From: a virus | IMG/VR virus record: IMGVR_UViG_3300017779_004709 | Location: 27,361-91,360 of that record | Length of the DNA: 64,000 bases | Strand: one strand, 5' to 3' | Shown here: positions 15,100 to 53,493 of the stretch, one piece after another | How the letters are laid out: each line of letters opens with the position of its first letter | Numbering within the stretch: the first letter of the stretch is position 1 | Made by a program: the position numbers and the translations under genes | The notes under the pieces: generated by a model | Told to the model about the DNA's origin: nothing | Databases searched by the model: none | The model's input: only the letters and a program-made list of their open reading frames with translations

Positions 15100-15150
15100 A
15101 TGGAAAGCAAATTAAAAAATGGGAGAAATCGTGAAGATGGAAAAGTTTAA
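15100..15150 (+). CDS. Possible 16-residue leader peptide overlapping the reductase start
   Basis: ATG 15100 has a better ribosome binding site (GAGG, seven bases away) than the reductase start itself. The frame reads MESKLKNGRNREDGKV and stops at 15148-15150, overlapping the first 32 bases of the reductase. It could couple translation onto the large gene, like the frame at 5120. It may also be chance. Confidence 0.35.
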   Translation: MESKLKNGRNREDGKV

Positions 15151-34411: not shown

Positions 34412-36101
34412 TAATCATATCATAAGTTTAGAGAGTCGTGATCACGAGTATTATCATCCAAATGGTGAAGTGTGGCAAAAATATTCAGTTATAAATGGTG
34501 TTTTAGAAGGAGAATATTCAGAATTCCATGCTAATGGTAATATAATGAAAAATGGTATTTATGAGAATGGTAAAAAACAAAGAAGATGGACTTGTTGGCA
34601 CGACAACGGAAAGATTTGGTATATAAATTCGTATTTAGATGGTATATTACATGGAGAGTGTAGTTCATATAGAGGTGATGGTGGGATAGAGTTTAAAGGT
34701 GAATACAATAACGGAATAAAATGTGGAGAATGGGAAATAAATCACGATAATGGTAATAGAGATGAACATGGAAGTTTTAAAGACGGATTAAAAGATGGGG
34801 TATGGCATAGATATCACTATGAAACAGGTAACAAATACTACGAATCAGAATTTGTAAAGGATAAAGAAATAGGACTGAAAACAGAGTATTACTTGGGTGG
34901 AGAATTAAGAAGGAAGTTTTATATAGAAGATTCTATAAAAAATGGGGAATACATTGAGTATGATAAAACAAGTGGTAAGGTTTGTCAAGAGGGATTTTAC
35001 AAAAACGATAAAATAAGCGGTGAATGGAAAGTTTATTATTCACACAATAATATTTGTTCCATACAAAATTATACTGAAGGTATTTTGAATGGAGACTCAA
35101 CTGAATTTTATGAAACAGGTGAAAAGAGACTTGAATCATTTTATGTGTTTGGAAAGTTAACTAATGATTGGATTCACTTTTATGAAAGTGGTGCAATTAG
35201 AGAAAAGACTACTTATAAAAATAATAAGATTCACGGAGATTATATATCTTTCCACGAAAATCGTGCTGAATGGCAAAAAACGAAATATGAAAATGGAAAA
35301 ATTGTAGGTCAGTATTTGGAGTTTTTTCCAAATGGGGTTTTAAATGCAGAGGGAAATTATCATAATGGGCGGAAAACAGGTGAATGGACTTTTCATTATG
35401 ACGATGGTGATGTTCAAAGTATAAGTAATTATGAAGATAACAAAAGGAATGGATTGACAACAAATTATCATCGAGACTCAAAGAAATCATCTGAGGGTGA
35501 GTATAAAAATGGTAAAAAGGTAGGAGAGTGGGAATACATATCTTGGGATGATGAGGTTGATACTAAAAATTATGTTAATGGAATACAGGTAGGTAAATGG
35601 AGAAGTTTAGATAGTGATGGAAAATTATTGTTTTCAGGTTTGTTAGATTCGGATGGGGTAGAGTTAGAGAAAACCACATATCATTTACACAACCAACAAG
35701 TTCACATACAAGAAAAGAAAAAACGAATTAACAAGTCAGGAAAAAGTAAGTTGGTAATGAGAGAAGAATATAATTCAACTGGAGTTAGAACAGAATTATT
35801 AAAGGTTGATTTGAAAACCGATACATCAAATCATAAATCTTGGTTTAATCACGGAGTACTAAAAAAAGAACACAAAATAAAAAACGGTAAATATATAGGT
35901 AACTATTTAGAAAAATTTGCTAACGATACTACCAGAGGAAAGGGTGTTATGAAAGATGGAGAAATGGATGGTAAATGGACATTTTGGCACCACAATGGAC
36001 AAAAAGAGTGTGAGGTTATCTGTAAAAATGGAGAACTTATTAAGGGCACAGTTTGGGACGATGATGGGAATGTGAAAGAAGGCACAAGGTTTAATTTCTA
36101 A
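34398..36101 (+). CDS. Giant MORN_2/YwqK-like repeat protein, copy 1
   Basis: 567 residues made almost wholly of repeats of about 22-23 residues with the pattern G-E-W-x-x-Y-x-x-N-G ... Y-x-N-G-K. Examples are GIKCGEWEINHDNG, GRKTGEWTFHYDDG and GEMDGKWTFWHHNG. By eye there are around 20 units. MORN_2 repeats form an elongated beta sheet; the bacterial YwqK label as an antitoxin is not well founded. No signal peptide is seen. The long rod could be a binding scaffold or a virion fibre part (inference). A shorter relative follows after one base. Confidence 0.78.
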   Translation: MNNFDNHIISLESRDHEYYHPNGEVWQKYSVINGVLEGEYSEFHANGNIMKNGIYENGKKQRRWTCWHDNGKIWYINSYLDGILHGECSSYRGDGGIEFKGEYNNGIKCGEWEINHDNGNRDEHGSFKDGLKDGVWHRYHYETGNKYYESEFVKDKEIGLKTEYYLGGELRRKFYIEDSIKNGEYIEYDKTSGKVCQEGFYKNDKISGEWKVYYSHNNICSIQNYTEGILNGDSTEFYETGEKRLESFYVFGKLTNDWIHFYESGAIREKTTYKNNKIHGDYISFHENRAEWQKTKYENGKIVGQYLEFFPNGVLNAEGNYHNGRKTGEWTFHYDDGDVQSISNYEDNKRNGLTTNYHRDSKKSSEGEYKNGKKVGEWEYISWDDEVDTKNYVNGIQVGKWRSLDSDGKLLFSGLLDSDGVELEKTTYHLHNQQVHIQEKKKRINKSGKSKLVMREEYNSTGVRTELLKVDLKTDTSNHKSWFNHGVLKKEHKIKNGKYIGNYLEKFANDTTRGKGVMKDGEMDGKWTFWHHNGQKECEVICKNGELIKGTVWDDDGNVKEGTRFNF

Positions 36102-36102
36102 A

Positions 36103-37353
36103 ATGAATTATAAAAAAATTCCTGATAACGATAATGCTATAATGATAGATGGAAAAGTCGTGATGTCATTTGATCCACGATACAAAGAATATCTGAAATG
36201 GAAAAATGATAATCCAGAACTTGAAGAGCAATTAGTTGATGAATTAGATTTAAAGATAGGTATAGCTAAACGATATAATAATGGTGCACCACATAAAGAG
36301 GATTCACCATTACAAAAGTTATTTTCTCATAGTGTTCAAGTTTGGACTTGGTATGACAAGGGTGGTAATTTAATTTTAAAGTCTGAAATGCAAAGGGATG
36401 TAAATCATGGAAAGCAATATGCATATTTCTCCAATGGTAATCTTAAATCTGAAATAGAATACATCGAAGGTAAGAAGAATGGTAAGTTTATCGAATGGAA
36501 TTCTGAAAAAGTAAAAATTATGGAAGGGGAATATAAAAATGAAAAACGAGTGGGTGAGTGGTTGTTTAATTATGACTCTGGTAAGCCAAAATGGATAGGT
36601 CAGTATAAAAATGATGTTATAGTTGAGGAATTGATACAATATGAAGAAAGTGGTAATATCCTATCGGTAGAAAATTTTAAAGATGGTAAACTTAATGGAC
36701 CTTTTGAATATTTTCAGAACGGAAAACTCCGTGAGGTAGGTCATATGGTGGATAACAAAAAAAATGGAGAAGTTAAAGCATATTGGGTAAATCAAAATTT
36801 AAAAAGAATTGAAAATTTTAAAATGGGTATAGCAGAAGGGGAATTTAAAGAGTTCTTTATTGGTGGAACTTTGATGAGTTCTGGTAAAACTAAGTTAGGA
36901 TTACCGAGAGGAACTTGGCAGTGGTATTATGAAAATGAAAAACTAAAAAGAGAAATGGTTTATACAGATGGAGTTCGTACAAAAAGCAGTGAATGGGATA
37001 AGAAGGGTAATATGTTATACGAACAAGAATGGAAAGGTAACATTCAACATGGTTCGTGTAAATATTGGAATATTCACGGATTGTTAGTTAAAAATTATAA
37101 TTATAGAAATGGTAAACTACATGGTAAGTTTACTGATTATTATCAAACAGGAGTTAATAGGTCAAGTGGTAATATGAAATATGATATGATGCAAGGAGAT
37201 TGGACTTTTTGGTTTCATAACGGAAAAAAGGAAGTAAGTTGTACCTTTAATCTTGGTACACCAACTGGAACTGCTAAAATATGGCACGATAATGGTACTC
37301 TTAAAAAAGTAATTAATGAAGAATGGTCACAATGGGATTCACACAAGTTATGA
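36103..37353 (+). CDS. MORN_2/YwqK-like repeat protein, copy 2
   Basis: 416 residues. The first 80 residues differ (FDPRYKEYLKWKNDNPELEEQ), then repeats such as GKQYAYFSNGNLKSEIEYI, EKRVGEWLFNYDSG and MMQGDWTFWFHNGKKE run to the end. Likely arose by duplication with the gene before it, then diverged. The stop overlaps the next glycosyltransferase start by four bases, tying the repeat proteins to the glycan cassette. Confidence 0.76.
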   Translation: MNYKKIPDNDNAIMIDGKVVMSFDPRYKEYLKWKNDNPELEEQLVDELDLKIGIAKRYNNGAPHKEDSPLQKLFSHSVQVWTWYDKGGNLILKSEMQRDVNHGKQYAYFSNGNLKSEIEYIEGKKNGKFIEWNSEKVKIMEGEYKNEKRVGEWLFNYDSGKPKWIGQYKNDVIVEELIQYEESGNILSVENFKDGKLNGPFEYFQNGKLREVGHMVDNKKNGEVKAYWVNQNLKRIENFKMGIAEGEFKEFFIGGTLMSSGKTKLGLPRGTWQWYYENEKLKREMVYTDGVRTKSSEWDKKGNMLYEQEWKGNIQHGSCKYWNIHGLLVKNYNYRNGKLHGKFTDYYQTGVNRSSGNMKYDMMQGDWTFWFHNGKKEVSCTFNLGTPTGTAKIWHDNGTLKKVINEEWSQWDSHKL

Positions 37354-39930: not shown

Positions 39931-40143
39931 ATGTATTACGAAGCACAAGTTGTATTTACTGAAGAAATAGACACTAAAAATGGAGTTAAGGAAAAGAAAG
40001 TCCGACGCAACTATTTAGTAGAATGTGATTCAGTATCAGTAGCAGAAGCAAGAGTAACTGAATTTTTAAAAGATTCAGCATTTTTCTTCGAGGTAAAGGT
40101 AGCGAAAGAATCTAAGATAGTAGACGTAGTGGAAGCATCATGA
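39931..40143 (+). CDS. Small protein, DUF4494-like, 70 aa
   Basis: Opens MYYEAQVVFTEEIDTKNG and continues KKVRRNYLVECDSVSVAEARVTEFL, a pattern I associate with DUF4494, a small protein family common in Bacteroidota and their phages. GGAG upstream. Function unknown. Overlaps the ClpP gene by four bases. Confidence 0.55.
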   Translation: MYYEAQVVFTEEIDTKNGVKEKKVRRNYLVECDSVSVAEARVTEFLKDSAFFFEVKVAKESKIVDVVEAS

Positions 40144-40742
40144 ACGGAAAATATTGGGGTGAAAAGAAAACGCCAGTCCGTACGGCAACACAAAATGGTA
40201 ATACCGACAAGCACATTTCGGTTCAAGAAAATAAAATCTATTACTACTCAAGTGTAAACAGAGATAGTGCAGTAGAACTAAACAAGAAGATTGCAGAATT
40301 AGAATCTAAGAGTTTATCCTTATCAAATAGTTTAGATATTGATGCTCCTCCTGTAAAAATAATGATAAATTCAGGTGGTGGTTCTATTGTGGCAGGTATA
40401 TCATCTATGGACACCATAATAAGAAGTAAAGTTCCAATTCATACTTATGTGGATGGATTTGCAGCAAGTGCAGCAACATTCTTATCGGTAGTTGGAACTC
40501 ACAGACTTATGAGTAGAAATTCTTATATGTTAATCCACCAACTCTCAAGTAGTTTTTGGGGAACATATGCTAACTTTGAAGATGAAAAACAAAATCTCGA
40601 CTTGATGATGAAAACCATAAAGGATGTGTATAAGAAGTATACTAAAGTTCCTATGAAAGAACTAAATAGTATACTGAAACACGATTTACTATGGGACGCT
40701 CAAAAATGTTTAGATATGGGAATGATTGATCAGATAATATAA
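40140..40742 (+). CDS. clpP: ClpP-like serine protease, copy 1
   Basis: 200 residues. Catalytic triad visible: S110 in DGFAASAATF, H133 in YMLIHQLSS and D182 in KHDLLWDA; INSGGGSIVAGISSMDTI is the substrate-binding glycine strand. No ClpX/ClpA is encoded in the window, so it would use a host unfoldase or act alone. In many phages ClpP-like enzymes serve as capsid proteases, but no structural genes surround it. A second, divergent ClpP is at 56094. Confidence 0.87.
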   Translation: MNGKYWGEKKTPVRTATQNGNTDKHISVQENKIYYYSSVNRDSAVELNKKIAELESKSLSLSNSLDIDAPPVKIMINSGGGSIVAGISSMDTIIRSKVPIHTYVDGFAASAATFLSVVGTHRLMSRNSYMLIHQLSSSFWGTYANFEDEKQNLDLMMKTIKDVYKKYTKVPMKELNSILKHDLLWDAQKCLDMGMIDQII

Positions 40743-41815
40743 TGAAACCACTTTTATCACAATGTTTGATTGGTTATAAGTTTGGTAGAGTGAATGTAGA
40801 TAAAGATTATTTTCTTTGTTGTAGAATTCCACCGATAGGCAATTTTAATGAAGATGGTACTTATAAAGAATTTTGGAATTCTAAAAAATATAATGATTTA
40901 CGGAAAAAATTAAAATATAATTTAGAGAAACAGTCTGCTGAGTGGGATAACCTTTGTTATGAGTGTCCACATTATGTGGAAAATAAAATGTTATCTGAGA
41001 GTGGAGAAATTGTAGATGATTTACCAAAAACAGGACCAAAGACGTTTGATATTGAGGTAGGAAATCCTTGTAATCATAGATGTAATTTTTGTTGGTTTTG
41101 GTCTTATGATATGTTAGAAAATGATGGTCAATGGGATGGTTGGAAAGATTGGGCAAAAAAACAACTTGATTTAGAAACTTATATTTCGATAGTTGATGAT
41201 CTAAAAGAACTCGGTGGGTGTGAAGAAATTTCCATAAGTGGTGGTGGAGAACCATTTATTGTAAAAGATATTATGAAAATGATTGAACACACAAAGAAGT
41301 TAGGGTTTAAAGTTAAAATATTTACTAATTTCTCACGAGTCAATCATGACGATATTGATAATTTTATAAAATGGGGAGTAGATAGATTTGAAGTTAATAT
41401 TTCCGCTGGTACTGAAGAAACTTATTGTAAAACAAGAAAATTAAAATCTAAGGATTGGAATTTACTTATTGATAATCTTACTTATTTAAATGAAAAGAGA
41501 AAAGAATTAAATTTCACATCACCCATTAAATATGTGGTTATCGTAACTAAAGAAAATATAGAAGAAATAGATGAAATTTTTGAATTGGCAATTAAACTTG
41601 GATGTTATTTTATTGATTTTAGAGATTTAGTTTCTAACGGAGTTCATAACGGACAAGAGTTATTACCAAGTGAAAAGCAGGTGGAAGTTTTTAATAAAAA
41701 GTTTTTAATAAATGTAAAAAAGTATAATTTAAAGGAAGTTACTGATGAATATTATTATTATTCAAAGGAAAGAGATTTAGGAGTGTTCAATGAAAGTATT
41801 AGTTATAGGAGATAG
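40742..41815 (+). CDS. Radical SAM enzyme with N-terminal SPASM-like domain, copy 1
   Basis: 357 residues. The radical SAM cluster motif CNHRCNFC is at C110, C114, C117, unusually late, followed by ISISGGGEPFIVKD (SAM-binding GGE). Before it, residues 1-80 look like a SPASM auxiliary-cluster domain: C8, the CC pair at 26-27 in FLCCRIPPIGNF, FWNSKKYNDLRKKL, and LCYECPHY (C72, C75). SPASM domains normally follow the radical SAM core; here it precedes it. Such enzymes modify peptides or sugars. A paralogue with the same order is at 50075. The substrate is unknown. Confidence 0.82.
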   Translation: MKPLLSQCLIGYKFGRVNVDKDYFLCCRIPPIGNFNEDGTYKEFWNSKKYNDLRKKLKYNLEKQSAEWDNLCYECPHYVENKMLSESGEIVDDLPKTGPKTFDIEVGNPCNHRCNFCWFWSYDMLENDGQWDGWKDWAKKQLDLETYISIVDDLKELGGCEEISISGGGEPFIVKDIMKMIEHTKKLGFKVKIFTNFSRVNHDDIDNFIKWGVDRFEVNISAGTEETYCKTRKLKSKDWNLLIDNLTYLNEKRKELNFTSPIKYVVIVTKENIEEIDEIFELAIKLGCYFIDFRDLVSNGVHNGQELLPSEKQVEVFNKKFLINVKKYNLKEVTDEYYYYSKERDLGVFNESISYRR

Positions 41816-42578
41816 TTGTAAAGATGTATTTGTGTATGGTGATATTACACGAATAAGTCCAGAGGCACCAGTACCCGTATTTGTTCCAACAGATACAGAA
41901 AAAAATGATGGTATGGCTCGTAATGTTTCACATAATGTAGAGGCATTAGAAATGCACATTTCTACCATTACAAATAAAAATGGTATTGTCAAAAAACGAT
42001 ATGTGGATAATCGTAGTGGTCAAATGGTATTGAGAGTTGATGAACATGATTATTGTGATAGAATAGATAGAAAAGTTTTAGAAGGTATACGAGATAATAA
42101 ATGTACACCACACTTTGGTTCTGAGACAAATGTTGATGCGATTATCATATCAGATTATTGTAAGGGATTTTTAGAAGAAGAAGATATTCAATTTATTTGT
42201 AATAATAATAAAAATGTTTTTGTTGATACTAAGAAACAACTCGGTGATTTTATTTTAAATGCAGATTTTATTAAAATAAATGAGTTAGAGTATCAAAAAA
42301 ATCACGATGTGTTATCCGATGAAGAATTCAAAGATAAACTAATAGTTACTTTAGGTAGTAAGGGATGTAGATATAGAAATACAGTATATTCTGTTCCCGA
42401 AGTACCAGTTAGGGATGTAAGTGGTGCAGGTGATACATTTCTTGCTGGTTTGGTTCGTGGGTATTTAGATACGGGTAGCATAGTTGAGGGAATAAGATTT
42501 GCACAAAAATGTACTACAATAGTGGTACAGAAACACGGAGTTGCAACCGTAGAATTAAAGGAGTTACAAAATGGCTAA
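41790..42578 (+). CDS. PfkB-family sugar kinase (HldE/RfaE kinase-like)
   Basis: 262 residues, shorter than usual (about 310). VLVIGDSCKDVFVYGDITRISPEAPVPVF matches the start of the heptose-7-phosphate kinase domain; DAIIISDYCKGFL and the C-terminal DVSGAGDTFLAGLVRG with catalytic Asp are typical PfkB. The HldE-like start suggests ADP-heptose or similar LPS sugar precursor synthesis, in keeping with the glycosyltransferases nearby. It overlaps the radical SAM gene by 26 bases. Confidence 0.8.
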   Translation: MKVLVIGDSCKDVFVYGDITRISPEAPVPVFVPTDTEKNDGMARNVSHNVEALEMHISTITNKNGIVKKRYVDNRSGQMVLRVDEHDYCDRIDRKVLEGIRDNKCTPHFGSETNVDAIIISDYCKGFLEEEDIQFICNNNKNVFVDTKKQLGDFILNADFIKINELEYQKNHDVLSDEEFKDKLIVTLGSKGCRYRNTVYSVPEVPVRDVSGAGDTFLAGLVRGYLDTGSIVEGIRFAQKCTTIVVQKHGVATVELKELQNG

Positions 42579-42870
42579 AAGAAAATTACCACCACAAGGT
42601 TCACAACCACAACATCAAGTTGATTTATCAAAGGCAGAAACTTTAAAGTGTGAGGCCTGTGGAAATTATCTTTTCATCACATCAAACGTGATTAAGAGAA
42701 TTTCTGCAATAATGTCACCAACAGGACAAGAGGCAATGGTTCCTGTTCAAGTATATAGTTGTGGAAATTGTGGAAAAGTTCCAAAGATTTTTATGCAAGG
42801 TGCTGGTCTTGATACGATAGAAGAACAACCCAAAGAGGATTCGCTATCTCGACCTGACCTTATGGGATAA
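42571..42870 (+). CDS. Small zinc-ribbon protein, 99 aa
   Basis: Two cysteine knuckles, LKCEACGNYLF and YSCGNCGKVPK about 34 residues apart, make a classic zinc ribbon; a Pro/Gln-rich N-terminus precedes it. Overlaps the kinase by eight bases and the next gene by one. Possibly a nucleic-acid or protein adaptor; function unknown. Confidence 0.65.
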   Translation: MAKRKLPPQGSQPQHQVDLSKAETLKCEACGNYLFITSNVIKRISAIMSPTGQEAMVPVQVYSCGNCGKVPKIFMQGAGLDTIEEQPKEDSLSRPDLMG

Positions 42871-43103
42871 TGTCTTTAAATTTACTTGGACATTATATTT
42901 GGAAAAGAATCCAAAAAGATAATACAGATAACAGAAACATTAAACATAAACCGAGAGAAAGTATGACAGGACTTTATATAGGACCATCTGATATTCAAAG
43001 GTATGTAAATGATTACCTCAACTATGGTATTGATTATACAGGAGATGATAATATATCTGCTGAAGATAGAATAGAAAAGTATTGGGATGATTCCGATGGT
43101 TAA
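42870..43103 (+). CDS. Unknown small protein, 77 aa
   Basis: Acidic C-terminal half (YTGDDNISAEDRIEKYWDDSDG), basic N-terminal half. No recognised motif. Start overlaps the zinc-ribbon stop by one base (TAATG). Confidence 0.55.
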   Translation: MSLNLLGHYIWKRIQKDNTDNRNIKHKPRESMTGLYIGPSDIQRYVNDYLNYGIDYTGDDNISAEDRIEKYWDDSDG

Positions 43104-43677
43104 AATAGAGGATTTATCATTAGAGATTGCAAATTATTGGACATCATCTAAGATGTTTCAAGAAAACAATACTAATTGTGGGGCTCTGATAGCCTTTGAC
43201 TGGCATGGTGATTGTTTATCTGAAATAAATACTAATATTGATTTACATGATTTAGAAATTGATAATTTTAAATTTCATTCTTTGATATATTTTATTGCTG
43301 AAAATAATTTCAATTATATATTGGGGTTGAGAAATGTTAGATATAAGAATAATCCATCAGAGTCTTGGACTAATAAATTAAAAGAACATTTAAATACAAA
43401 TAGTTTAGATTACGATGAGTATGTGGTTCAACCATGGCCTACATCTATTCCTGAGTTCGATGTTCCTGATAATATTTTTATTTTAAGGTATTCATTTAAT
43501 CCAGATAATAAAATTGATGATTTAGCTGCAAATAATACATTATTCAAAAATTGGATTTTAAAGAGTGATTGGGAAGATAAGTTTATTGAAGAAAGTCCAG
43601 AACTTGAAAAAAAACGAGTTATAGTTTTAGTTAGTGATATTGAAAATTTAGTATTACATAGTGGATATGTCAAATGA
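43096..43677 (+). CDS. Unknown protein, 193 aa
   Basis: ATG 43096 overlaps the previous gene by eight bases; an in-frame ATG at 43087 is possible. Soluble, acidic, with YILGLRNVRYKNNPSESW and a C-terminal RVIVLVSDIENLVLHSGYVK. No known motif recognised. Coupled to the SGNH gene after it by a four-base overlap, so it may work with it. Confidence 0.6.
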   Translation: MVKIEDLSLEIANYWTSSKMFQENNTNCGALIAFDWHGDCLSEINTNIDLHDLEIDNFKFHSLIYFIAENNFNYILGLRNVRYKNNPSESWTNKLKEHLNTNSLDYDEYVVQPWPTSIPEFDVPDNIFILRYSFNPDNKIDDLAANNTLFKNWILKSDWEDKFIEESPELEKKRVIVLVSDIENLVLHSGYVK

Positions 43678-44354
43678 TACTTTATACCATAGGAGATAGT
43701 TGGACATATGGATATGATTTAGAAAATCCAAAAACAGAATGTTATCCATACCTTTTATCACAAAAATTAGGATGTGATTTAATAAACGAGGGTTTACCTG
43801 CAGCATCAAATGATTGGATGTTTAGAAAATCAATCGAGTGGATATTGAAGAATGATATTTCGAAATTAGAATTATTTATAGTTGGATGGTCTTTTCCTTG
43901 GCGACGAGAGGAGAATTTTAGTTTTTATCATGGTGGTGATCCTAAATCTGAAAGGAAAAATTATGGAAATGGACCTGACGGTGAACCTATTTCCAAGTGG
44001 ATTAGTGAGAATTTATTTGATATGAGATTATCATACATAAAAACCTTTACTTATATCTATACATTACAGGAAATATTAAAAAGTAAAAAAATTAATTATT
44101 TGTTCTATTACCCATTAGATAATTTTTTTATTCAAGATGATATGTACGAAAAAACCATCAAATCTGATGTTCATGATATTTATTTACAGATAGATATGGA
44201 TAGATGTGTGGGTCCTGATTTTGATGGTAATCATGTTATTCCATATGAAGAATTGGCTTGGGGTGGAGGTCCACGTAGACATCCAAATAAAAAAGAAACT
44301 GAGTGGTTGGCAGACCAACTATATAAGTTTATAAAGGAAAATTATGGAATTTAA
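43674..44354 (+). CDS. SGNH-hydrolase-like protein, copy 4
   Basis: 226 residues. MILYTIGDSWTYGYDLE keeps the canonical G-D-S nucleophile block, unlike copies 1-3. ECYPYLLSQKLGCDLINEGLPAASNDWMF matches copy 3 closely in layout; LFIVGWSFPWRREE follows; RRHPNKKETEWLADQLY has the final His. Likely esterase or acyl hydrolase; substrate unknown. Confidence 0.68.
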   Translation: MILYTIGDSWTYGYDLENPKTECYPYLLSQKLGCDLINEGLPAASNDWMFRKSIEWILKNDISKLELFIVGWSFPWRREENFSFYHGGDPKSERKNYGNGPDGEPISKWISENLFDMRLSYIKTFTYIYTLQEILKSKKINYLFYYPLDNFFIQDDMYEKTIKSDVHDIYLQIDMDRCVGPDFDGNHVIPYEELAWGGGPRRHPNKKETEWLADQLYKFIKENYGI

Positions 44355-44757
44355 AATTTATGATACTACAAGATTCGACACGAGTGGTTCACTTGATGAT
44401 GTGGTGTTTTTTGTTAGATATGGGTTTGAAGAAAGTGGTTCATCTACAAAAAGTGGAATGTTCAATGAAAACCAACAATTATATTTTAAAGAATTAGATC
44501 CTGTTGATTCAGATAATTTTGTAAACCATAGTAGTGTACACGAATCAGTAGTAAAAGGGTGGATTCAGAATTCTTATGGTAGTAATTGGGGTTCGCTTAC
44601 TTCAAGTATTCAGACCACGATGACGAATGATTTAAATTCAAGGTCATCTTTAAAGCCAACAACCGTTATCTGGTTTTCCACAGGTTCACAGAATTTAAAT
44701 ACTGAATTATTAGAAAGTGGGAGTACGATTCATACATATAATGATCCTTCAATTTAG
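44344..44757 (+). CDS. Unknown protein, 137 aa
   Basis: Ser/Thr-rich, beta-rich sequence with HESVVKGWIQNSYGSNWGSL and PTTVIWFSTGSQNL. No cysteines, no signal peptide. Composition resembles a phage structural or chaperone-like protein, but nothing specific is recognised. Overlaps the SGNH gene by 11 bases. Confidence 0.55.
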   Translation: MEFKIYDTTRFDTSGSLDDVVFFVRYGFEESGSSTKSGMFNENQQLYFKELDPVDSDNFVNHSSVHESVVKGWIQNSYGSNWGSLTSSIQTTMTNDLNSRSSLKPTTVIWFSTGSQNLNTELLESGSTIHTYNDPSI

Positions 44758-44771
44758 AGGCTTTAAATAAT

Positions 44772-45938
44772 ATGGTTAAATTTTACTTTGACTTGAATGG
44801 TTATAGTAAACATAGGGTTTCAGACAAGATAAACAAAATAAAGGTTATTGACCGAAAGAAATTACAAGACGGAATAGATACATTTCAGAAAGAATTAGAT
44901 TGGCCACATATGTGGTCAGTTGATGATGCACAAAAACGATTAGATGATGGTTGGTGGTTTTATGTAATAGAGATAAATGATAAATATGTCGGATGGTCTT
45001 GGTTTGATATTAATACAAAAAAATTTTGTAATTTGTATGTTCATAAAGATTTAAGAGATGGTGGTTTAGGTAAAGATTTAGTTTATGTAAGATTAAACGA
45101 ATGTAAGAATCAAGGTGTTGAAAAAGTTTGGATGGAAGTCGATGAATGGAATGTACCTATTCAAAAAATTGGACAAGAACTTGGTTGGACACCAAAGATA
45201 CATTACACTTTTTGGACAGGTGGTTTTGATTCAACCTATTTAATATGCAAATTATTAATAGATAACAAAATTGTTCAACCTATTTATATTGATGATGGAG
45301 TAAATCATGGTGGATACCATTCAAATCCATTATCGGTACAACGAGGTGATAATTCTTATCCAAGACAATCAACCGATATAGAAAAGGATAGGATAGATTG
45401 GTTAGAAAACAAGATACATGAAATCATACCAAATTCTAAAGATTTGTTATTACCATTGATGATTGTAGATAATCCTATAAAAGAGGATAACCACATAAGT
45501 GATGTTATAAAAAAATACAATGAATGGATACCTGAACCATTATTTAAGGATAAAAATGGTAATCCACATTGGTTAGAAGTTCAGGCAGACATACTAACGA
45601 GATTCCAAAAGGAATTTGGTATGGAAGTTTATTACTCTAACGACCACATTGATGGAGAGGTTTGGGAAGCTTTAGATGACGCCATAGAGGATGGAAAGTT
45701 AGATGTGGATAAGTTATCGGATGAGTATAAAGAATTTGAAATATTTAGTGGATTCAATCAACCATTGAGAACCACCAATAAAGAAGAAATGTTAGAGGAT
45801 TCAAAACTACATGGATTTGATGAGTTGTTGTATTACACTTGGACTTGTTGGTATCCAAAAGATGATGAACCTTGTAATGAATGTAAAATGTGTAAGGAGA
45901 GAATAATAGAATGTCGGAACATTGGGGATACCATTTAG
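44772..45938 (+). CDS. GNAT acetyltransferase fused to QueC-like PP-loop ATPase
   Basis: 388 residues in two domains. Residues 1-~140 are GNAT-like (FCNLYVHKDLRDGGLGKDLVYV is the acetyl-CoA loop). From about 144 a PP-loop ATPase begins: YTFWTGGFDSTYLICKLL (TGGFDS at 149-154, equivalent to SGGxDS). The C-terminal CNECKMCKER with an earlier Cys (TCWYP) matches the zinc site of QueC, the enzyme that makes 7-cyano-7-deazaguanine. Other queuosine-pathway genes were not recognised here, so DNA deazapurine modification is only a possibility. The fusion is unusual. Confidence 0.72.
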   Translation: MVKFYFDLNGYSKHRVSDKINKIKVIDRKKLQDGIDTFQKELDWPHMWSVDDAQKRLDDGWWFYVIEINDKYVGWSWFDINTKKFCNLYVHKDLRDGGLGKDLVYVRLNECKNQGVEKVWMEVDEWNVPIQKIGQELGWTPKIHYTFWTGGFDSTYLICKLLIDNKIVQPIYIDDGVNHGGYHSNPLSVQRGDNSYPRQSTDIEKDRIDWLENKIHEIIPNSKDLLLPLMIVDNPIKEDNHISDVIKKYNEWIPEPLFKDKNGNPHWLEVQADILTRFQKEFGMEVYYSNDHIDGEVWEALDDAIEDGKLDVDKLSDEYKEFEIFSGFNQPLRTTNKEEMLEDSKLHGFDELLYYTWTCWYPKDDEPCNECKMCKERIIECRNIGDTI

Positions 45939-46276
45939 TACTTGATTGTAAAAATGGAAGAAAATTAAACGAAGATTCTGAAGAAGATATAAGAGTTTTC
46001 ATTAAAGAACTTGTGGATAAAATTGATATGGTGGCTTATGGTGAACCAAATATAGCTTATCTACCAACACCAAGTAGACCTGAGTGTTCAGGATGGTCGG
46101 TGGTTCAGTTAATCTATACGAGTAGTATTACCTGTCATTTCGCCGATGATAGTGGAGATTTTTATTTAGATGTTTTTTCGTGTAAAAAATTTGAAAAAGA
46201 CATAGTTATAGAATATGTGAAGCAATATTTTTCACCTTTTAGGGTGAAAGAGAAATACTTATTAAGACAATCGTAA
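45911..46276 (+). CDS. S-adenosylmethionine decarboxylase-like protein (phage SpeD type)
   Basis: 121 residues. HWGYHLVLDCKNG, IDMVAYGEP and YLDVFSCKKFEKDIVIEYVKQYFSPFRVKEKYL follow the small AdoMet decarboxylase pattern known in marine T4-like phages. These enzymes self-cleave before a Ser to form a pyruvoyl group; here the site reads YTSSITCHF (S71/S72), without the Glu of the bacterial ESH motif. Activity is therefore uncertain, but the family call is good. Would feed polyamine synthesis. Overlaps the QueC-like gene by 28 bases. Confidence 0.75.
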   Translation: MSEHWGYHLVLDCKNGRKLNEDSEEDIRVFIKELVDKIDMVAYGEPNIAYLPTPSRPECSGWSVVQLIYTSSITCHFADDSGDFYLDVFSCKKFEKDIVIEYVKQYFSPFRVKEKYLLRQS

Positions 46277-46297
46277 AGAAACAAAGGAGATACGAAA

Positions 46298-47170
46298 ATG
46301 AAAAGGTTATTATTGATATTAGGAATGGTTTCAGTTCTAACAGCTCAAACGGCAACAATCAAAAATAGTATAATTGGATATACCACTATTAATGAGAAAT
46401 ATGATCCAGAAGGTAGTGATGATAGAAATGGTGATGAATATGACACTGCTATTTCTTTTGACAAACCATATCTTTGGTCATTCATTAAAAGTGATGATTC
46501 AAAATGGATGGCATCCATCTTCGTAGACGCACCTTGGGCAAGAGGTAGTGTTTATGTTGAGGAGTTATTCTATAAACCATATAGTGATAAGTTCACAGTT
46601 GGTTTAGGACGACAAGCAATTCCATTTGGTTCTAATGTTCCATACTTGGATTTAACAAGGGGTGATAAATTTACCTATCAAACACCAACACCTAACGATG
46701 TTGGTTTGTTATATTTCGGAGATGGTATTAGTGTTTATGGTGGAGTTGGTAATTGGTTTATCGAAACCTATCACGGAAACGATATAGAAAATGGATTCGA
46801 GGAATACACAGCAGGTCGTGTGAGTTACGAGTTTGGTGACCACTTTGTTGGTGTATCAGCCGATAACGAAAACAGACAGGCACTTGATATAAGTGGATAT
46901 AGTGAGTTCGTGGATTATGTTACAGAATTTAGAGAAGATTACCAATGGGGAAGAGCCGTTGTTAGACTACCTAATATGTGGCATCTAAAAGGTTTAGGAC
47001 TAATTGGTGGTTTGGAAAGAACCGAAGATGAAACACAGGCACTTTATGGTGTTGTGTATCAGTATGGAGAACCCAATCAATTTGTTTCCGCTGAATTAAG
47101 TGGAGAAGGTGATTTGAGGGTTAAGTTGTATTATGGTTTTAACTTAAAGATAGGAAATAAAAATGACTAA
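46298..47170 (+). CDS. Outer-membrane beta-barrel (porin-like) protein
   Basis: 290 residues. A Sec signal peptide is clear: MKR, hydrophobic LLLILGMVSVLTA, then QTAT. The rest alternates polar and aromatic residues in strands (FVGVSADNENRQALDISGYSE, GKLYYGF-like endings) and finishes with YYGFNLKIG, typical of barrel proteins. It appears to be a host-type outer-membrane protein carried by the phage. It could alter permeability or block superinfection (inference). AAAGGAG precedes the ATG. Followed by a membrane transporter with eight bases overlap. Confidence 0.72.
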   Translation: MKRLLLILGMVSVLTAQTATIKNSIIGYTTINEKYDPEGSDDRNGDEYDTAISFDKPYLWSFIKSDDSKWMASIFVDAPWARGSVYVEELFYKPYSDKFTVGLGRQAIPFGSNVPYLDLTRGDKFTYQTPTPNDVGLLYFGDGISVYGGVGNWFIETYHGNDIENGFEEYTAGRVSYEFGDHFVGVSADNENRQALDISGYSEFVDYVTEFREDYQWGRAVVRLPNMWHLKGLGLIGGLERTEDETQALYGVVYQYGEPNQFVSAELSGEGDLRVKLYYGFNLKIGNKND

Positions 47171-48071
47171 ATTTTTAAAAGGATTTTTAGCAATAACAGC
47201 TGCAGTATTCGCTTGGTCAACCCTTGAGGTTACTGGTAGTTTTATATTCGCTGAAGGAGCAGGACCCGTATCGGTATTGTCGGTTAGATTTCTAATTGCC
47301 ACATTATTGTTTGCTGGGGTAATGTTATGGAAAAAACAAACAACAGGTGAAAATCTATTCGCCGTGGAAAAGGAAGATAGGAAGAAATTTCTATTAAATG
47401 GTGTAATATTGGCAGCACACTTGTTAGTGTATTGGTTCGCTTGGGAACTACTCGACCCGAACCTACCTGTAATTTACGCACTATTCTATATATATCCATT
47501 TATATTGTGTTTGATTTCCATATTTTACTATGGAGAGAAGTTCAGTAAAAATAGAAAACTCGCATTAGGATTGGGAACTCTTGGTTGTGCGTTCGCTATT
47601 GAACTGATACCAGCATTCTCACTTGAAGCCCTAAACACCAAAGGTGTATTATTGGGTGTGGCAGCTGGATTATCTTGGGTAGCATACTTGTTAGTAGGAC
47701 AGGATATAATGAGAAAATATAAACCACTTACGATTGTATTTTATGACTTTCTACAAGTGTTTGTTTATGTTTCATTATTCCAATCACCCATGACAACACT
47801 TTCAGAGGTAACATTTAACGGATTACTGGCAATCGCTTACATTTCAGTAGTGGCAAGTTTTATTGCTTATCTATGTTATTGGATAGCAGTTAAGAATATT
47901 GGAGCAACCAATACAGGAATTGCTGAATTGGGAACACCGATATTTGGAGTAACACTCGGTTATTTTTTCTTAGCTATGTCACCATCATTGTGGCAGATAG
48001 CTGGACTTGTGATGATTTCAAGTGGATTGTACCTAATCTACAATGAAAAACAAGTCGTATATGATCAATGA
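47163..48071 (+). CDS. EamA/DMT-family inner-membrane transporter
   Basis: 302 residues with about ten hydrophobic helices. AVFAWSTLEVTGSFIF, ALFYIYPFILCLISIF, AAGLSWVAYLLVG and ASFIAYLCYWIAVKNIGATNTGIAELGTPIFGV are the two EamA repeats (the internal duplication of the family). These carriers export metabolites or take up small solutes. Complete, so probably functional. A transporter is rare in phages. With the barrel protein before it, it forms an envelope pair that may move the same compound (inference). Confidence 0.88.
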   Translation: MTKFLKGFLAITAAVFAWSTLEVTGSFIFAEGAGPVSVLSVRFLIATLLFAGVMLWKKQTTGENLFAVEKEDRKKFLLNGVILAAHLLVYWFAWELLDPNLPVIYALFYIYPFILCLISIFYYGEKFSKNRKLALGLGTLGCAFAIELIPAFSLEALNTKGVLLGVAAGLSWVAYLLVGQDIMRKYKPLTIVFYDFLQVFVYVSLFQSPMTTLSEVTFNGLLAIAYISVVASFIAYLCYWIAVKNIGATNTGIAELGTPIFGVTLGYFFLAMSPSLWQIAGLVMISSGLYLIYNEKQVVYDQ

Positions 48072-48777
48072 TGATCTTCTAATTGATTTAGATGATTATT
48101 TAGACTTATCTAACTTTAGTTTATGTACTAAAGATTTTAAAGATAAGTTTCATTTAATACCTGATGAATCTAAAAGTGTTGGTTATTTTACACCAGATTC
48201 ATCTATTGAAGATCCTGTTGATTCCAAAACTATAATGTTAAGGGTTTTAAAGGATAAAGATGATTGGAAAGATTGGGGGCTAATTGATAAAGAAGAAAAG
48301 TGGAAAGATGGCCCCCTCTATGAGTTATTCCCAAATATCAAAAAATTTATTTCCACACTACCATTTAAATCTATTGGTAGGGTGTTCATCAGTTTTACCC
48401 AAAATAAAACTAATATAGCACCACACGCTGGATTCATACCAAATCATCCAAAAACACCACCTTGGAGACAAGAATATCTTTGGTTTAGTCTTATTGGTGG
48501 AAAAAGGATGTGGGTGACAGATTGGGAAAGTACTTTAGAATTTTATAAAAATGGTTTTGTGGTAGAAGATAGATTTCCTATGATTTATTCTAAAGAAATA
48601 TCTTGTAGATTTAATCCAGTTATGTTACATGGTGTAGAGTGTGGAGAAGATTTTTCTGCAAGTCTTAGAGTGGATGGGGAATATACTGAAGATTTTAGAG
48701 AAATTGTTCTTGGAGATAGAGAATGGAAAACTACATTTGAGTTTGTAGATGAGGTAGGATATTTTGATGGATTCTGA
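48061..48777 (+). CDS. Aspartyl/asparaginyl hydroxylase-like protein, copy 1 (metal Asp missing)
   Basis: 238 residues from ATG 48061, chosen by alignment with the paralogue at 51707. Double-stranded beta-helix pattern: IAPHAGFIPN (H122, but G124 where Asp or Glu binds iron), WRQEYLWFSLIGGKRMW, MLHGVECGE (H190) and SLRVDGEY (R203, 2-oxoglutarate arginine). The copy at 51707 keeps H-x-D. Family members with H-x-G are known to bind iron with two His only, so activity is not excluded. Overlaps neighbours by 11 bases each. Confidence 0.65.
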   Translation: MINDDLLIDLDDYLDLSNFSLCTKDFKDKFHLIPDESKSVGYFTPDSSIEDPVDSKTIMLRVLKDKDDWKDWGLIDKEEKWKDGPLYELFPNIKKFISTLPFKSIGRVFISFTQNKTNIAPHAGFIPNHPKTPPWRQEYLWFSLIGGKRMWVTDWESTLEFYKNGFVVEDRFPMIYSKEISCRFNPVMLHGVECGEDFSASLRVDGEYTEDFREIVLGDREWKTTFEFVDEVGYFDGF

Positions 48778-49267
48778 TGTAAAATATATCTTAGATTGGT
48801 ATAAAAATAAGATATGGTCAAAACCATCCTTATCTAAAATATGTGATGGAATTGGAATGGTTGCCATTCGTGATATACCAAAAGGAACAAGTATATTCGA
48901 TTTGGCAGACAGAAGTGTTTATGGTTGGATACCTTGGAGTGAGGCAAAATCAATTCCAAGAGAGGTCTTGGAATGGGTATTGGAATGTCAACCACAAGTT
49001 GGTGACCAAGTTATTGATGTTCCAAAATTACACGAAGAATTTTTCAACGACAAACACGAATCTATGTTTGGATATACACAACAAGGAATGAATTGGCAAA
49101 CAACTTGGTATTATGTCAATCATTCATCAGATAAACCTAATGTAGCAGCACATTCTACTGGTCATCCAAGAGTTCAAAAGTATATTACCCTTAGAGATAT
49201 TTATAAAGGGGAAGAAATATTAGAGGATTATAATGGATACACAAAAGAATGGAAATTAGATATTTAG
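48767..49267 (+). CDS. SET-domain protein (lysine methyltransferase-like)
   Basis: 166 residues from ATG 48767 with AGGAT upstream. GIGMVAIRDIPKGTSIFDL is the SET-N start, WYYVNHSSDKPNVAAHS holds the NHS motif (118-120) that lines the SAM site, and YITLRDIYKGEEILEDYNGY ends the core with the EDYN (EExxxDY) motif. Length suits a minimal SET domain without pre- or post-SET. SET enzymes methylate protein lysines. Very unusual for a phage; target unknown. Confidence 0.82.
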   Translation: MDSDVKYILDWYKNKIWSKPSLSKICDGIGMVAIRDIPKGTSIFDLADRSVYGWIPWSEAKSIPREVLEWVLECQPQVGDQVIDVPKLHEEFFNDKHESMFGYTQQGMNWQTTWYYVNHSSDKPNVAAHSTGHPRVQKYITLRDIYKGEEILEDYNGYTKEWKLDI

Positions 49268-50088
49268 ATTTAGGTTCAGTTTCACCTGAAATATACACAT
49301 CTCTTTGGGAATACGATAATGTCGTTGAGATCAAAGAACCCACCTTAATAAAATTTTCAACAAATAGAACCTTAATTCAATTTTGGCAAGGCCCTTATTG
49401 GGATGAAGTTGCTCAGACTTGGAAAAACGACCATACGGATTTGAGTAACTTTTATAATGCCAAGATATTAGAAGGAATTCCAAAGTGTAGGTGTTACATA
49501 CCTATCGAAATCAATTATAGTGCTGAGATAGCATATTATATAGCAAGTAAACACGGAACTGATTTTATCTTATATCTACCCGATATGGATGTACTTTCTG
49601 AAAAACATAAACGACAGGAAATAGATGCTATATTTCAAAATATTATGGTTGAGGTTTTATCAGATAGAAGTATTGATTCTAAAATTGATGGTAATGATGT
49701 ATTGTATAAACACAACAATAAGTACAAAAAGTTTTCAGGTTCATTATATAGACCTGCTCTAAATGGGTTTGGTTATATTGATAATGGTATAACCTACAAG
49801 TTTGATTCTGAACTGGCTAACAAGTTAAGGGGTATTACTAATGATGTGGATATTAAGAAATTTGATGTCAAGGATGTTTCTGATGTTGTAGGTGGATTGT
49901 GGGAAATTGATTCTACCATAGATAAGAATGATTTGGATTTTGAAGTAATTGATAGGTTGTGTTATAAATTGGGATATACTTTACGACATGACAATTTTGA
50001 TGAAGAAGATTTATTATTTGAGAGAGGACATAAGAGAATGACAGATAAAGACTGGTATTTGTATGGAAATAATGATGGATTTACCTAA
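49249..50088 (+). CDS. Lipoate-protein ligase-like protein (weak call)
   Basis: 279 residues. NDVLYKHNNKYKKFSGSLYRPALNG then YIDNGITYKFDSELANKLRG resembles the lysine-binding and C-terminal strands of LplA-type ligases (DIxxxGKKxxG...), and TLIQFWQGPYWDEV may correspond to the N-terminal ligand loop. The match is by pattern only. If right, it would attach lipoate or biotin-like acids to a protein. Overlaps the SET gene by 19 bases. Confidence 0.5.
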   Translation: MEIRYLDLGSVSPEIYTSLWEYDNVVEIKEPTLIKFSTNRTLIQFWQGPYWDEVAQTWKNDHTDLSNFYNAKILEGIPKCRCYIPIEINYSAEIAYYIASKHGTDFILYLPDMDVLSEKHKRQEIDAIFQNIMVEVLSDRSIDSKIDGNDVLYKHNNKYKKFSGSLYRPALNGFGYIDNGITYKFDSELANKLRGITNDVDIKKFDVKDVSDVVGGLWEIDSTIDKNDLDFEVIDRLCYKLGYTLRHDNFDEEDLLFERGHKRMTDKDWYLYGNNDGFT

Positions 50089-51130
50089 GAGTTGTAATTT
50101 TGGTCGTGTTTATGGTAGACTAACTACTGATGGTGAGTATAAAATTTGCTGTGGTAATGTGCCATCATCTGGTAATTATCACACGGATGGTAAATTTGTA
50201 GATTATTGGAAATCAGACAAATTAAATAATTTACTTATTCGATTACGAGATAATCTTGACGAGATGAATGAGACTTGGGCAGGGAGTAGTTGTAATCATT
50301 GTCCTCATTCTGTAATTAATGAAAAACTTCATAATGGTGAAATGACCATTCCAAACTCACCAATTACTTTCAACATAGATGTTATTAATATGTGTGACCA
50401 TAGATGTAACTTTTGTTGGCATTGGTCATACGATATGATAGACGATAAGGCACAATTCGATGGGTGGAAAGATTGGGCTAAAGAGAAAATAGATTTTCAA
50501 ATATTCAGGGATACCGTAGATGGTTTAGTAGAACTTGGTAATTGTGAGGAGATTCAAATTGGTGGTGGTGGAGAACCATTACTACATCCGAATATACACG
50601 AGATGATTGGATATGTCAAGGAAAATAATCTCTCCTGTAAATTAATCACCAATTTTTGTCAGATAACAGAAGAACAACTTGATAATTTAATTGAAGTAGG
50701 ACTTGATGATATCTTAATTAATATATCGGCTGGAACACGAGAGACCTACTGTGAGACAAGACGTGTACAGTCAAAAGTATGGGATAAATTGATGTCTAAC
50801 ATAGAGCATATAATTAAAAATAGAACAACAGATGTTCCAAGAGTTACTTTAAAGAGTGTAATTAATAGCGAAAATATTCACGAAGTCAGTCACATGATAG
50901 ATTTGGGAGTGACACTTGAAGTTGATGTCGTGGCTCTGAGATTCTTTCAAGAAGATGGTGTATATAAATCCAATAATAAAATTGTTAGTGGGGAGCAACA
51001 AATACAATTTAATAGAGTACTTAAAGAAAAGATATCTGAATATGGATATGAAGAATTCAACGATGATACTGCATTCAAATATAATTACAAATCACCGAAT
51101 GTCAAAACACTATTACTTGGGGATGTTTGA
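50075..51130 (+). CDS. Radical SAM enzyme with N-terminal SPASM-like domain, copy 2
   Basis: 351 residues from ATG 50075, placed by comparison with the copy at 40742 (alternatives ATG 50072 and 50063). SPASM-like part: C7, CC at 25-26 in YKICCGNVPSSGNY, YWKSDKLNNLLIRL, and SSCNHCPHS (C73, C76). Radical SAM core: CDHRCNFCWHWSYD (C107, C111, C114) and IQIGGGGEPLLHPN. The two copies share WSYD and the KDWAK stretch but have diverged throughout, so the duplication is old. Substrate unknown. Confidence 0.82.
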   Translation: MDLPKSCNFGRVYGRLTTDGEYKICCGNVPSSGNYHTDGKFVDYWKSDKLNNLLIRLRDNLDEMNETWAGSSCNHCPHSVINEKLHNGEMTIPNSPITFNIDVINMCDHRCNFCWHWSYDMIDDKAQFDGWKDWAKEKIDFQIFRDTVDGLVELGNCEEIQIGGGGEPLLHPNIHEMIGYVKENNLSCKLITNFCQITEEQLDNLIEVGLDDILINISAGTRETYCETRRVQSKVWDKLMSNIEHIIKNRTTDVPRVTLKSVINSENIHEVSHMIDLGVTLEVDVVALRFFQEDGVYKSNNKIVSGEQQIQFNRVLKEKISEYGYEEFNDDTAFKYNYKSPNVKTLLLGDV

Positions 51131-51720
51131 TGAAAATATTTGAAATAGGTGTTGCTAAAACAGGAACAACTTCACTTGGTAGGGCATATGAGATTTTAGG
51201 ATTTAAACACAAGGATGAGGATCCAGATTTATATTTAAAATTTATTGAGAATTATGATTATGAAGTATTGTTTGAGGAGATTGACAAGTATGATGCATTC
51301 CAAGATGGTCCTTGGCACAACAAGGATGTGGATTATAGAGTACTTGATGAAAAATATCCTAATAGTAAATTTATAATTTTAGAAAGAGATGATGAGAGTT
51401 GGATAGGGAGTAACGAAAGATTCTATTCACCAAAATATCATAAGGATTGGACACCAGATCCAATAAGGGAATATTCATTTTTAATAGATGAAAGATGGAT
51501 ACACGATAGGGAGAATATTATCAATGAAAAATTAGACTATAAGCACTCTAAATATCACGAAATAAATACCTATTTTAAAAACAGACCAAATGATTTATTG
51601 GTAATGAATATATGTGAAGGAGATGGATGGGAAGTGTTGTGTCCGTTTTTAGGTAAAGGTATACCTGATGTTCCGTTTCCAAAATTAAATGTATATGGAG
51701 AGAATGATGAGTCTAATTGA
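51130..51720 (+). CDS. Sulfotransferase-family protein
   Basis: 196 residues from ATG 51130. MKIFEIGVAKTGTTSLGRAYEILG contains the 5'-phosphosulfate loop (KTGTTS), and KYPNSKFIILERDDESW the 3'-phosphate region (R..SW). These match the Sulfotransfer_4/5 group that uses PAPS to sulfate sugars or amines. Small but with both PAPS motifs. Coupled to the radical SAM gene by a one-base overlap. Substrate unknown; a glycan is likely from context. Confidence 0.78.
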   Translation: MKIFEIGVAKTGTTSLGRAYEILGFKHKDEDPDLYLKFIENYDYEVLFEEIDKYDAFQDGPWHNKDVDYRVLDEKYPNSKFIILERDDESWIGSNERFYSPKYHKDWTPDPIREYSFLIDERWIHDRENIINEKLDYKHSKYHEINTYFKNRPNDLLVMNICEGDGWEVLCPFLGKGIPDVPFPKLNVYGENDESN

Positions 51721-52315
51721 ATTAGATGAATATTTAGATTTAGATATAGAACCACTTCATGAAGAATTTATGAAGGTGGTTGATACCATACCTAAAAAAT
51801 ATTGGAATATGTTTTATTCGAACGCGGATAAATTTGGTAATTTTGAAGAAGATTCACCTGAAGTTAAAACAATATATTTAACTGATTTAATTGAGGGAGT
51901 GGATATGAGTACTGATTATTTTTTGATAGACAAGGGTGAGTATTGGGTTGATTTACCAATATATGATGAGTTTCCCAAGATAAAAAAGATGGTTAATGAG
52001 TTACCATTCGAACATACAGGTAGAATAATGTTTATTTTTAGTAAAAATGGTGAGGAGATAGTAACACATTTCGACCACGATTGGGAAGAATGGCGTCAAG
52101 AAATGATTTGGATTAGATTCAACAATAATAAAAGAATTTTTGTAGACAATATTTATATAGAAGGAAACACTTGTTGGTTTGATAGTAAAAAACCACACGG
52201 AACTGAATCTGATGGGTATTCAATTAGTATGAGAGTTGATGGGAAGTTTAAATCAGATTTTAGAAATAAATTATTTGGGAATAATTCAAAATGGAAAACA
52301 GCACACATACCTTAG
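51707..52315 (+). CDS. Aspartyl/asparaginyl hydroxylase-like protein, copy 2
   Basis: 202 residues from ATG 51707 with GGAG six bases upstream. Full Fe(II)/2-oxoglutarate site: VTHFDHDWEEWRQE (H121, D123), KKPHGTES (H164) and ISMRVDGKF (R176). Shares its N-terminal LDEYLDLD and the WKTxxx ending with the copy at 48061. Probably hydroxylates an amino-acid residue or a small molecule. Overlaps the sulfotransferase by 14 bases and the next radical SAM gene by 25. Confidence 0.7.
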   Translation: MSLIELDEYLDLDIEPLHEEFMKVVDTIPKKYWNMFYSNADKFGNFEEDSPEVKTIYLTDLIEGVDMSTDYFLIDKGEYWVDLPIYDEFPKIKKMVNELPFEHTGRIMFIFSKNGEEIVTHFDHDWEEWRQEMIWIRFNNNKRIFVDNIYIEGNTCWFDSKKPHGTESDGYSISMRVDGKFKSDFRNKLFGNNSKWKTAHIP

Positions 52316-53493
52316 TAGATCCTGCAAAAATACGAAATAAATGGGTAAAGGTAGATGGTGTGCCTATGTCTATGTATGAAGAAAATACTCAAATGACAGA
52401 ACAGGTATATTGGGCATACAAAAGAGAATATTCGTTTAAACTTATGAATGTGGGAACACCTTGTAATACCAAGTGTTTTTATTGTTCACAATATTGGAAT
52501 CCGCCTGATTTGATAATAGCATATCCAAAATGGTTAACATTTGATGAGATTAAGCACTTTCTCACTTTTGTACCAGAAAAGACTATAACGGCTATTGGAT
52601 ATGGTCATCATGTTAGTAATGGTGAATTTTTTGCACATCCAAACGCTAAAGAAATATTACAACATCTTATTGACGAGAAATACACCGTAAGAGGAATTGA
52701 TACCAATGGTCATTTTGTAAACGAAGAACACATCAAGTTACTGAGTCTTTTAATGAAACATCGTTGGGGACGAAGTAGTCAAATTGATTACTTATGGAGT
52801 GGGATATATTTACACCTAACTAATTATGAAAAAACAGCACATACTTTTGAATTATTAGAGAAGTACGGACTTCCATATGCGGTAGTAATAGTACCATCAT
52901 TAACTGATTTAAATAATGGAACTACCGAAAGATGGATTAGATTACTGAATGAAAATCACAATCCAATCGAAATAGAAATCTCCCATCCAGCATATACTAA
53001 GTATGCTCCACCAAATGTTACAAAACATCTTGATTTTACTTGGGATGAGGGGTGGAAGCACATCAGAGAGTGGCGAAAATTATATCCAAGAATTAAAATA
53101 GATTCCGAAAATCAAGTCAATGCAAGTGCACTTGACCAATCGTTAAGTGATTTAATTGAATGGGACAATTATGAGCCTAATTCAAAAGTGTTATTCTTGG
53201 TATCGGAGTCGGTAGAGAAAGTATTCGAAAGTCATGTTAAAAAAATAACTCCATTCAATAATTACAAAATTCAAATGGTAAAGAATACAACATTCGGTGG
53301 TAACATAATCGTTGCTGGTTTATTGTTAGTTCAAGATTATATACCTGTAATTGAGAAAGTTTTATCTGAAGGTTATAAACCAGATGTAATTATTTTGCCT
53401 AAAGCTGGTTTTTTCTTTGATGAATTAGATTTAACAGGTGTTTCTGTTCATACCATTGAAGATAAATTTGGTATTGAAGTATGCTGGTGTTAG
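52291..53493 (+). CDS. Radical SAM protein with DUF512-like C-terminus
   Basis: 400 residues. Radical SAM motif CNTKCFYC at C58, C62, C65, then ITAIGYGHHVSNGEFFAHPN in place of the usual GGE loop. The last 110 residues, including TTFGGNIIVAGLLLVQDYI and VIILPKAGFFFDELDLTGVSVH, resemble DUF512, a domain usually paired with a PDZ and a diverged radical SAM domain. No PDZ is obvious here. The role of DUF512 proteins is not established. Ends cargo island B. Confidence 0.72.
   Translation: MENSTHTLVDPAKIRNKWVKVDGVPMSMYEENTQMTEQVYWAYKREYSFKLMNVGTPCNTKCFYCSQYWNPPDLIIAYPKWLTFDEIKHFLTFVPEKTITAIGYGHHVSNGEFFAHPNAKEILQHLIDEKYTVRGIDTNGHFVNEEHIKLLSLLMKHRWGRSSQIDYLWSGIYLHLTNYEKTAHTFELLEKYGLPYAVVIVPSLTDLNNGTTERWIRLLNENHNPIEIEISHPAYTKYAPPNVTKHLDFTWDEGWKHIREWRKLYPRIKIDSENQVNASALDQSLSDLIEWDNYEPNSKVLFLVSESVEKVFESHVKKITPFNNYKIQMVKNTTFGGNIIVAGLLLVQDYIPVIEKVLSEGYKPDVIILPKAGFFFDELDLTGVSVHTIEDKFGIEVCWC

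Follow-up and report, generated by a model that had tools for sequence, protein, structure and literature searches.

Two phage radical SAM proteins with a predicted twitch-like module ahead of the core

We find that a marine T4-type phage encodes two radical SAM proteins in which a cysteine module, predicted to be of the twitch-like, one-cluster type, precedes the catalytic core. Judged by sequence, the pair is a divergent phage branch of this N-terminal-twitch architecture and not the new class that the original prediction had proposed from the swapped order, as the same order is present in the curated family NF033640, in bacterial members of that family and in proteins of the cultured phage KVP40. 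SPASM and twitch domains are described in reviews as C-terminal extensions, and a literature search for an N-terminal SPASM domain found no mention of one. To our knowledge, none of the N-terminal-twitch enzymes has been characterized, and for this reason we regard the pair as being of moderate interest. It offers two compact test proteins with which to ask whether module order changes chemistry, and the N-terminal-twitch architecture is tied to phage and bacterial surface-glycan loci.

Results

The window, by which we mean the whole stretch of 64,000 nucleotides that was analyzed, contains a replication set made up of gp32, UvsX, a DnaB-type helicase, a family B polymerase and a clamp loader. 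Three radical SAM genes are found in the whole 91-kb record, the third being at 52291; the features of the other two and their neighbors are collected in Table 1. Proteins 1 and 2 share 37% identity across 344 residues (E=6e-84). The start of the protein 1 gene overlaps the ClpP stop codon, and its 3′-end runs 26 bp into the PfkB gene. The two genes were originally placed at 40742 and 50075. The first position was kept, but 50075 is an internal Met (the fifth codon) of a reading frame that opens at 50063, and translation could begin at 50063, 50072 or 50075. The 279-aa protein encoded ahead of protein 2 also precedes protein 2 homologues in related phages and is thus a conserved neighbor; its assignment as a lipoate-ligase type was rejected, as a PDB profile search gave no match.

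Table 1. Positions of the two radical SAM genes, their motifs and their neighbors (window coordinates, except for the first line, which refers to the virus record).
Feature	Position	Strand	Remarks
Virus record (91,360 bases)	window = bases 27361-91360		T4-type replication genes
ClpP-like protease gene	40140..40742	+	directly upstream of protein 1
Radical SAM protein 1, 357 aa	40742..41815	+	predicted N-terminal twitch-like module, then radical SAM core
Protein 1 predicted N-terminal twitch-like module, residues 8-75	40763..40966	+	C8-x17-C26C27...C72-x2-C75
Protein 1 CxxxCxxC SAM-cluster motif, residues 110-117	41069..41092	+	CNHRCNFC
PfkB-family kinase, heptose-7-phosphate-kinase-like	41790..42578	+	TIGR02198 E=2.9e-35
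279-aa protein preceding protein 2	49249..50088	+	without convincing family or PDB match
Radical SAM protein 2, 355 aa	50063..51130	+	architecture as protein 1
Protein 2 predicted N-terminal twitch-like module, residues 11-80	50093..50302	+	C11-x17-C29C30...C77-x2-C80; from alignment with protein 1 and homologues
Protein 2 CxxxCxxC SAM-cluster motif, residues 111-118	50393..50416	+	CDHRCNFC
Sulfotransferase-family protein	51127..51720	+	directly downstream of protein 2; PF17784 E=3.2e-25

The third radical SAM protein (52291-53493) has a C-terminal match to DUF512 (E=3.2e-8, above the cut-off), for which cobalamin binding has recently been proposed (PMC11659888), and has no relative among 50,697 phage records; the same phage also has a gene for a class II (B12-dependent) ribonucleotide reductase, at 15119. 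The EamA transporter at 47163-48071 shares 99% identity with the one on contig 3300032138_000524 (L030), and the genes around it are mostly 40-67% identical to their counterparts there (one is 86% identical), which, on the sequences compared, looks like a recent exchange of a single gene. Other genes of the window encode a protein with a GNAT acetyltransferase domain, a PP-loop/QueC-like domain and a CxxCxxC tail (44772-45938), a SET-domain protein (48764-49267, E=9e-10), a glutamine-synthetase-like protein (17164-18150) and two tandem proteins with MORN-like repeats seen in the translations (34398-37353). Two similar-looking ORFs are found at 48043-48777 and 51689-52315, the first with a weak match to aspartyl/asparaginyl hydroxylases.

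By motif, profile and predicted fold, both proteins of the pair belong to the radical SAM superfamily, and they would be expected to cleave SAM. PF04055 matches protein 1 with 74.8 bits and protein 2 with 54.5 bits (gathering cut-off 29.5), as well as all 18 members of the phage family, in which the GGGEP motif is also present. The AF2 models have a pLDDT of 82.3 and a pTM of 0.85 for protein 1, and of 85.3 and 0.87 for protein 2, with low local confidence in the core loop of protein 1, where most of residues 111-124 fall under 50. Both models show the partial (beta/alpha)6 barrel, and Foldseek matched them to the radical SAM structures SkfB, PqqE, MoaA, BlsE and DesII. QueE-like and viperin-like assignments were set aside, their matches being limited to the generic core.

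Five cysteines precede the core in each protein, namely 8, 26, 27, 72 and 75 in protein 1, where the core starts at C110, and 11, 29, 30, 77 and 80 in protein 2, where it starts at C111. In both proteins a W-x-S motif lies between C-x17-CC and C-x2-C, and the gap from the last module cysteine to the core is 34 residues in protein 1 and 30 in protein 2. The C...CC...C-x2-C region ahead of CxxxCxxC, with its W-x-S motif and its distance of about 35 residues, is thus much as originally described. Nine cysteines are invariant in an alignment of 18 phage homologues (five in the module, three in the core and one before GGGEP), and there is little or no variation in the WxS motif and in most of CNFCW. 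When the residues preceding each core were permuted 100,000 times, C-x17-C-x(30-55)-CxxC arose in 103 shuffles for protein 1 and 94 for protein 2. As this pattern, reached by about 0.1% of the shuffles, is conserved across homologues, we exclude chance as its origin. That the window comes from one metagenomic source is the sole reason to suspect that a frameshift, a misassembly or a wrong start has produced the swapped order. We consider the probability of this negligible, since it is refuted by 17 homologues besides the window pair, which lie on separate contigs and have module and core in this order within a single open reading frame; the cellular and KVP40 proteins described below do so too.

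The N-terminal domain had been called SPASM-like. This holds as far as the profile goes: in protein 1, residues 8-76 score 23.9 bits with Pfam SPASM (E=5e-5; the gathering cut-off is 21.5), and half of the family (9/18) is matched at E<=0.01; protein 2 on its own gives no SPASM match. However, a SPASM domain has seven cysteines for two clusters, whereas the twitch domain is a truncated form with one cluster (PMC6231123). The seven-cysteine motif CX9-15GX4C-gap-CX2CX5CX3C-gap-C is not found in the window proteins, whose five pre-core cysteines end at the CxxC, and the module does not take the SPASM position C-terminal to the core (residues 8-75 against a core at 110). Because the cysteines are too few for SPASM, we read the front module as twitch-like and of the one-cluster type, with four ligand-type cysteines plus C27 and a predicted cluster.

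The AF2 models of both proteins have the twitch order of a cysteine, a beta-hairpin, a cysteine, two helices and two cysteines. In the protein 1 model C8 is followed by a hairpin (strands 14-17 and 22-24), C26, two helices (41-45 and 48-59), C72 and C75, and the predicted order is the same in protein 2 (hairpin 17-27, helices 45-63). Cysteine-only ligand sets with CxxC can also bind zinc, and C27 is a further conserved cysteine, as might be expected if the front module were a structural zinc or disulfide knob outside catalysis. We find such a knob very unlikely, as the SPASM match above the cut-off, the twitch order of secondary structure and the SPASM-identical spacing favor an iron-sulfur site. 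The homology of the predicted twitch-like module to C-terminal modules rests on Pfam, NF033640 and spacing, because the other comparisons are weak: a profile-profile comparison with C-terminal modules gave P=0.0019 and a probability of 14%, an HMM of the phage module failed to tell genuine C-terminal modules apart from shuffled decoys, and the N-module profile had no meaningful match in the PDB.

The swapped order is that of the curated NCBIfam family NF033640 (N_Twi_rSAM, twitch domain-containing radical SAM protein). This profile is collinear with protein 1 (residues 8-295 on profile positions 5-304), aligns to residues 86-286 alone of protein 2, and matches 17 of the 18 phage family members at E<=1e-6. 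The scores of 72.9 bits for protein 1 and 50.4 bits for protein 2 (70.6 and 44.2 bits when the genomes were searched) are under the curated cut-off of 170, which is why we do not file the window proteins as members.

Matches above the cut-off were found in two of the 398 genomes searched, G078 and G113. G113 has one such member; in G078 five match pieces correspond to four separate genes in a row (three matched over their full length and one in two pieces), located in a bacterial O-antigen cluster (L084:4238-11143, G078:C19), and one of these genes is joined to a Wzt ATPase, Wzt_C domain included, in one 854-residue reading frame. The members in both genomes have a C-x17-CC...CxxC module ahead of the core, with a cysteine spacing near-identical to that of the window proteins, and in one cellular member Pfam places SPASM at 432-500 and Radical_SAM at 553-705, i.e. 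the module first. The T4-like vibriophage KVP40 encodes three further module-first radical SAM proteins, KVP40.0260,.0261 and.0272 (L083, KVP40 135055-144496), annotated as moaA/nifB/pqqE family or with a heme biosynthesis domain. They score 114-131 bits to NF033640, under its cut-off of 170, and have roughly 31-35 residues between module and core, with much the same cysteine spacing as the window proteins. We suggest that the same module is found on either side of the core, since the opening 70-80 positions of the NF033640 profile also fit C-terminal modules in ordinary G001 proteins, and since the x17 spacing is common to the C-terminal modules of SPASM proteins (L075-L077), the cellular N-terminal modules and the window proteins.

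In the tree, proteins 1 and 2 fall in separate clades, the window proteins stand apart from NF033640, and the KVP40 branches are long. Both types occur together on another phage contig (3300030085_003924), with one gene each. These sequence comparisons support proteins 1 and 2 as old paralogues, in keeping with their having been described as related but ancient. A search of the phage GenBank collection gave no match for protein 1 and three weak matches, to the core only, for protein 2; in GTDB contigs the relatives are at core level only, and their modules are C-terminal.

The pairing of protein 1 with the PfkB gene, including a similar overlap, is kept in close protein 1 homologues, and more distant ones (L021, L022, L024-L026) have no kinase gene after them. 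The match of the kinase to heptose-7-phosphate kinase (TIGR02198) is under the cut-off of that model, and its homologue in the cyanophage P-SSM2 is part of a heptose cassette, where genes for phosphoheptose isomerase and nucleotidyltransferase are its neighbors. Glycosyltransferase-type genes are located within 3.5 kb upstream of protein 1, the G078 relatives lie among RmlC/RmlD, Wzm-like permease, WbsX and TylF genes, and in KVP40 one of the trio is two genes from a PF00534 match (glycosyltransferase family). In pelagimyophages, radical SAM cassettes and LPS genes have been reported in the host recognition cluster (PMC7029224). Given the kinase coupling and the cellular relatives in O-antigen clusters, the substrate is probably made in the phage surface-glycan region. 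That it is a sugar is our leading guess and not a result, because the 91-kb record, which may be a fragment, yielded neither a phosphoheptose (SIS) isomerase nor a nucleotidyltransferase, and because the distant homologues are without the kinase. The best family matches for the window proteins include peptide and cofactor maturases too.

Discussion

We favor, as fairly probable, the reading that the window proteins are N-terminal-twitch enzymes with an auxiliary [4Fe-4S] cluster in the front module, a redox role and a sugar substrate. The CxxxCxxC motif would hold the catalytic [4Fe-4S] cluster that cleaves SAM, and the front module would hold one auxiliary [4Fe-4S] cluster, with C8, C26, C72 and C75 as ligands in protein 1 and C11, C29, C77 and C80 in protein 2. 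The first cysteine of the CC pair is the likely ligand, as KVP40.0260 is without the second. The front module may sit beside barrel strand beta-1. In SkfB the twitch strand adjoins beta-1, with cysteines after the hairpin and after alpha-2' (PMC6231123), and the cysteine placement in the AF2 secondary structure of protein 1 agrees with this order. Because C-terminal twitch domains fold back beside beta-1, we infer that a module just before beta-1 can fill the same site, and the swap would then alter gene order and not enzyme layout.

In the proposed reaction the 5′-deoxyadenosyl radical would abstract a hydrogen atom from the substrate, perhaps a surface-sugar precursor from the phage surface-glycan region, and the substrate radical would then pass an electron to the auxiliary cluster, as in the oxidation by BtrN. 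Fully ligated auxiliary clusters have been proposed as electron acceptors in two-electron oxidations (PMC9012708), and full ligation as in BtrN, as opposed to the open three-cysteine site of MoaA, would fit the window proteins because the four module cysteines are invariant. Alternatively, the auxiliary cluster could bind the substrate through an open iron as in MoaA, with oxidation not required. MoaA is indeed among the best structural matches, but it uses three cysteines (PMC9012708), against four that are invariant in the phage family, and we regard an open iron as quite unlikely.

We also considered that the two proteins could be peptide or protein maturases in the style of SkfB, PqqE or the tungsten-oxidoreductase maturase, in which the front module would aid substrate binding and accept electrons. 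Such a function, which we judge somewhat unlikely, would agree with SkfB, PqqE and SuiB being the best solved-structure matches and with the best NCBIfam core match being to the maturase TIGR04317 (E=9.5e-24 and 1.4e-24). However, the maturase profile matches span the generic core only and are far under their cut-offs, and no RRE domain and, in a shallow search of short ORFs, no precursor-like small gene was recognized beside either gene. Going further than the N-terminal-twitch redox enzyme that we favor, the phage clade might be a functionally distinct lineage in which the permuted module makes an active site absent from C-terminal twitch enzymes and, together with the heptose kinase, yields an unusual oxidized sugar that remodels the host surface; this we hold to be unlikely.

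Among known systems, the auxiliary-cluster cysteines of LipA also precede its core. A LipA-type N-terminal auxiliary cluster was nevertheless rejected for the window proteins, since the CX4CX5C of LipA is not found before either core (the protein 1 cysteines being 8, 26, 27, 72 and 75). The front module resembles the first half of the SPASM domain of anSME, PqqE and SuiB, in line with the Pfam SPASM match, but these enzymes have seven cysteines and two clusters in a C-terminal domain, and the window proteins have too few cysteines. BtrN and SkfB have the four-cysteine, one-cluster module with a hairpin and two helices, and a radical SAM core, but their module comes after the core, and SkfB adds an RRE domain (PMC6231123). 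KVP40.0260,.0261 and.0272 have the swapped order and are likewise from a T4-like phage, although they are very divergent. NF033640, finally, has the twitch N-terminal to CxxxCxxC and the C-x17-CC and CxxC spacing in common with the window proteins, which differ from it in scoring below its cut-off and in forming a separate clade.
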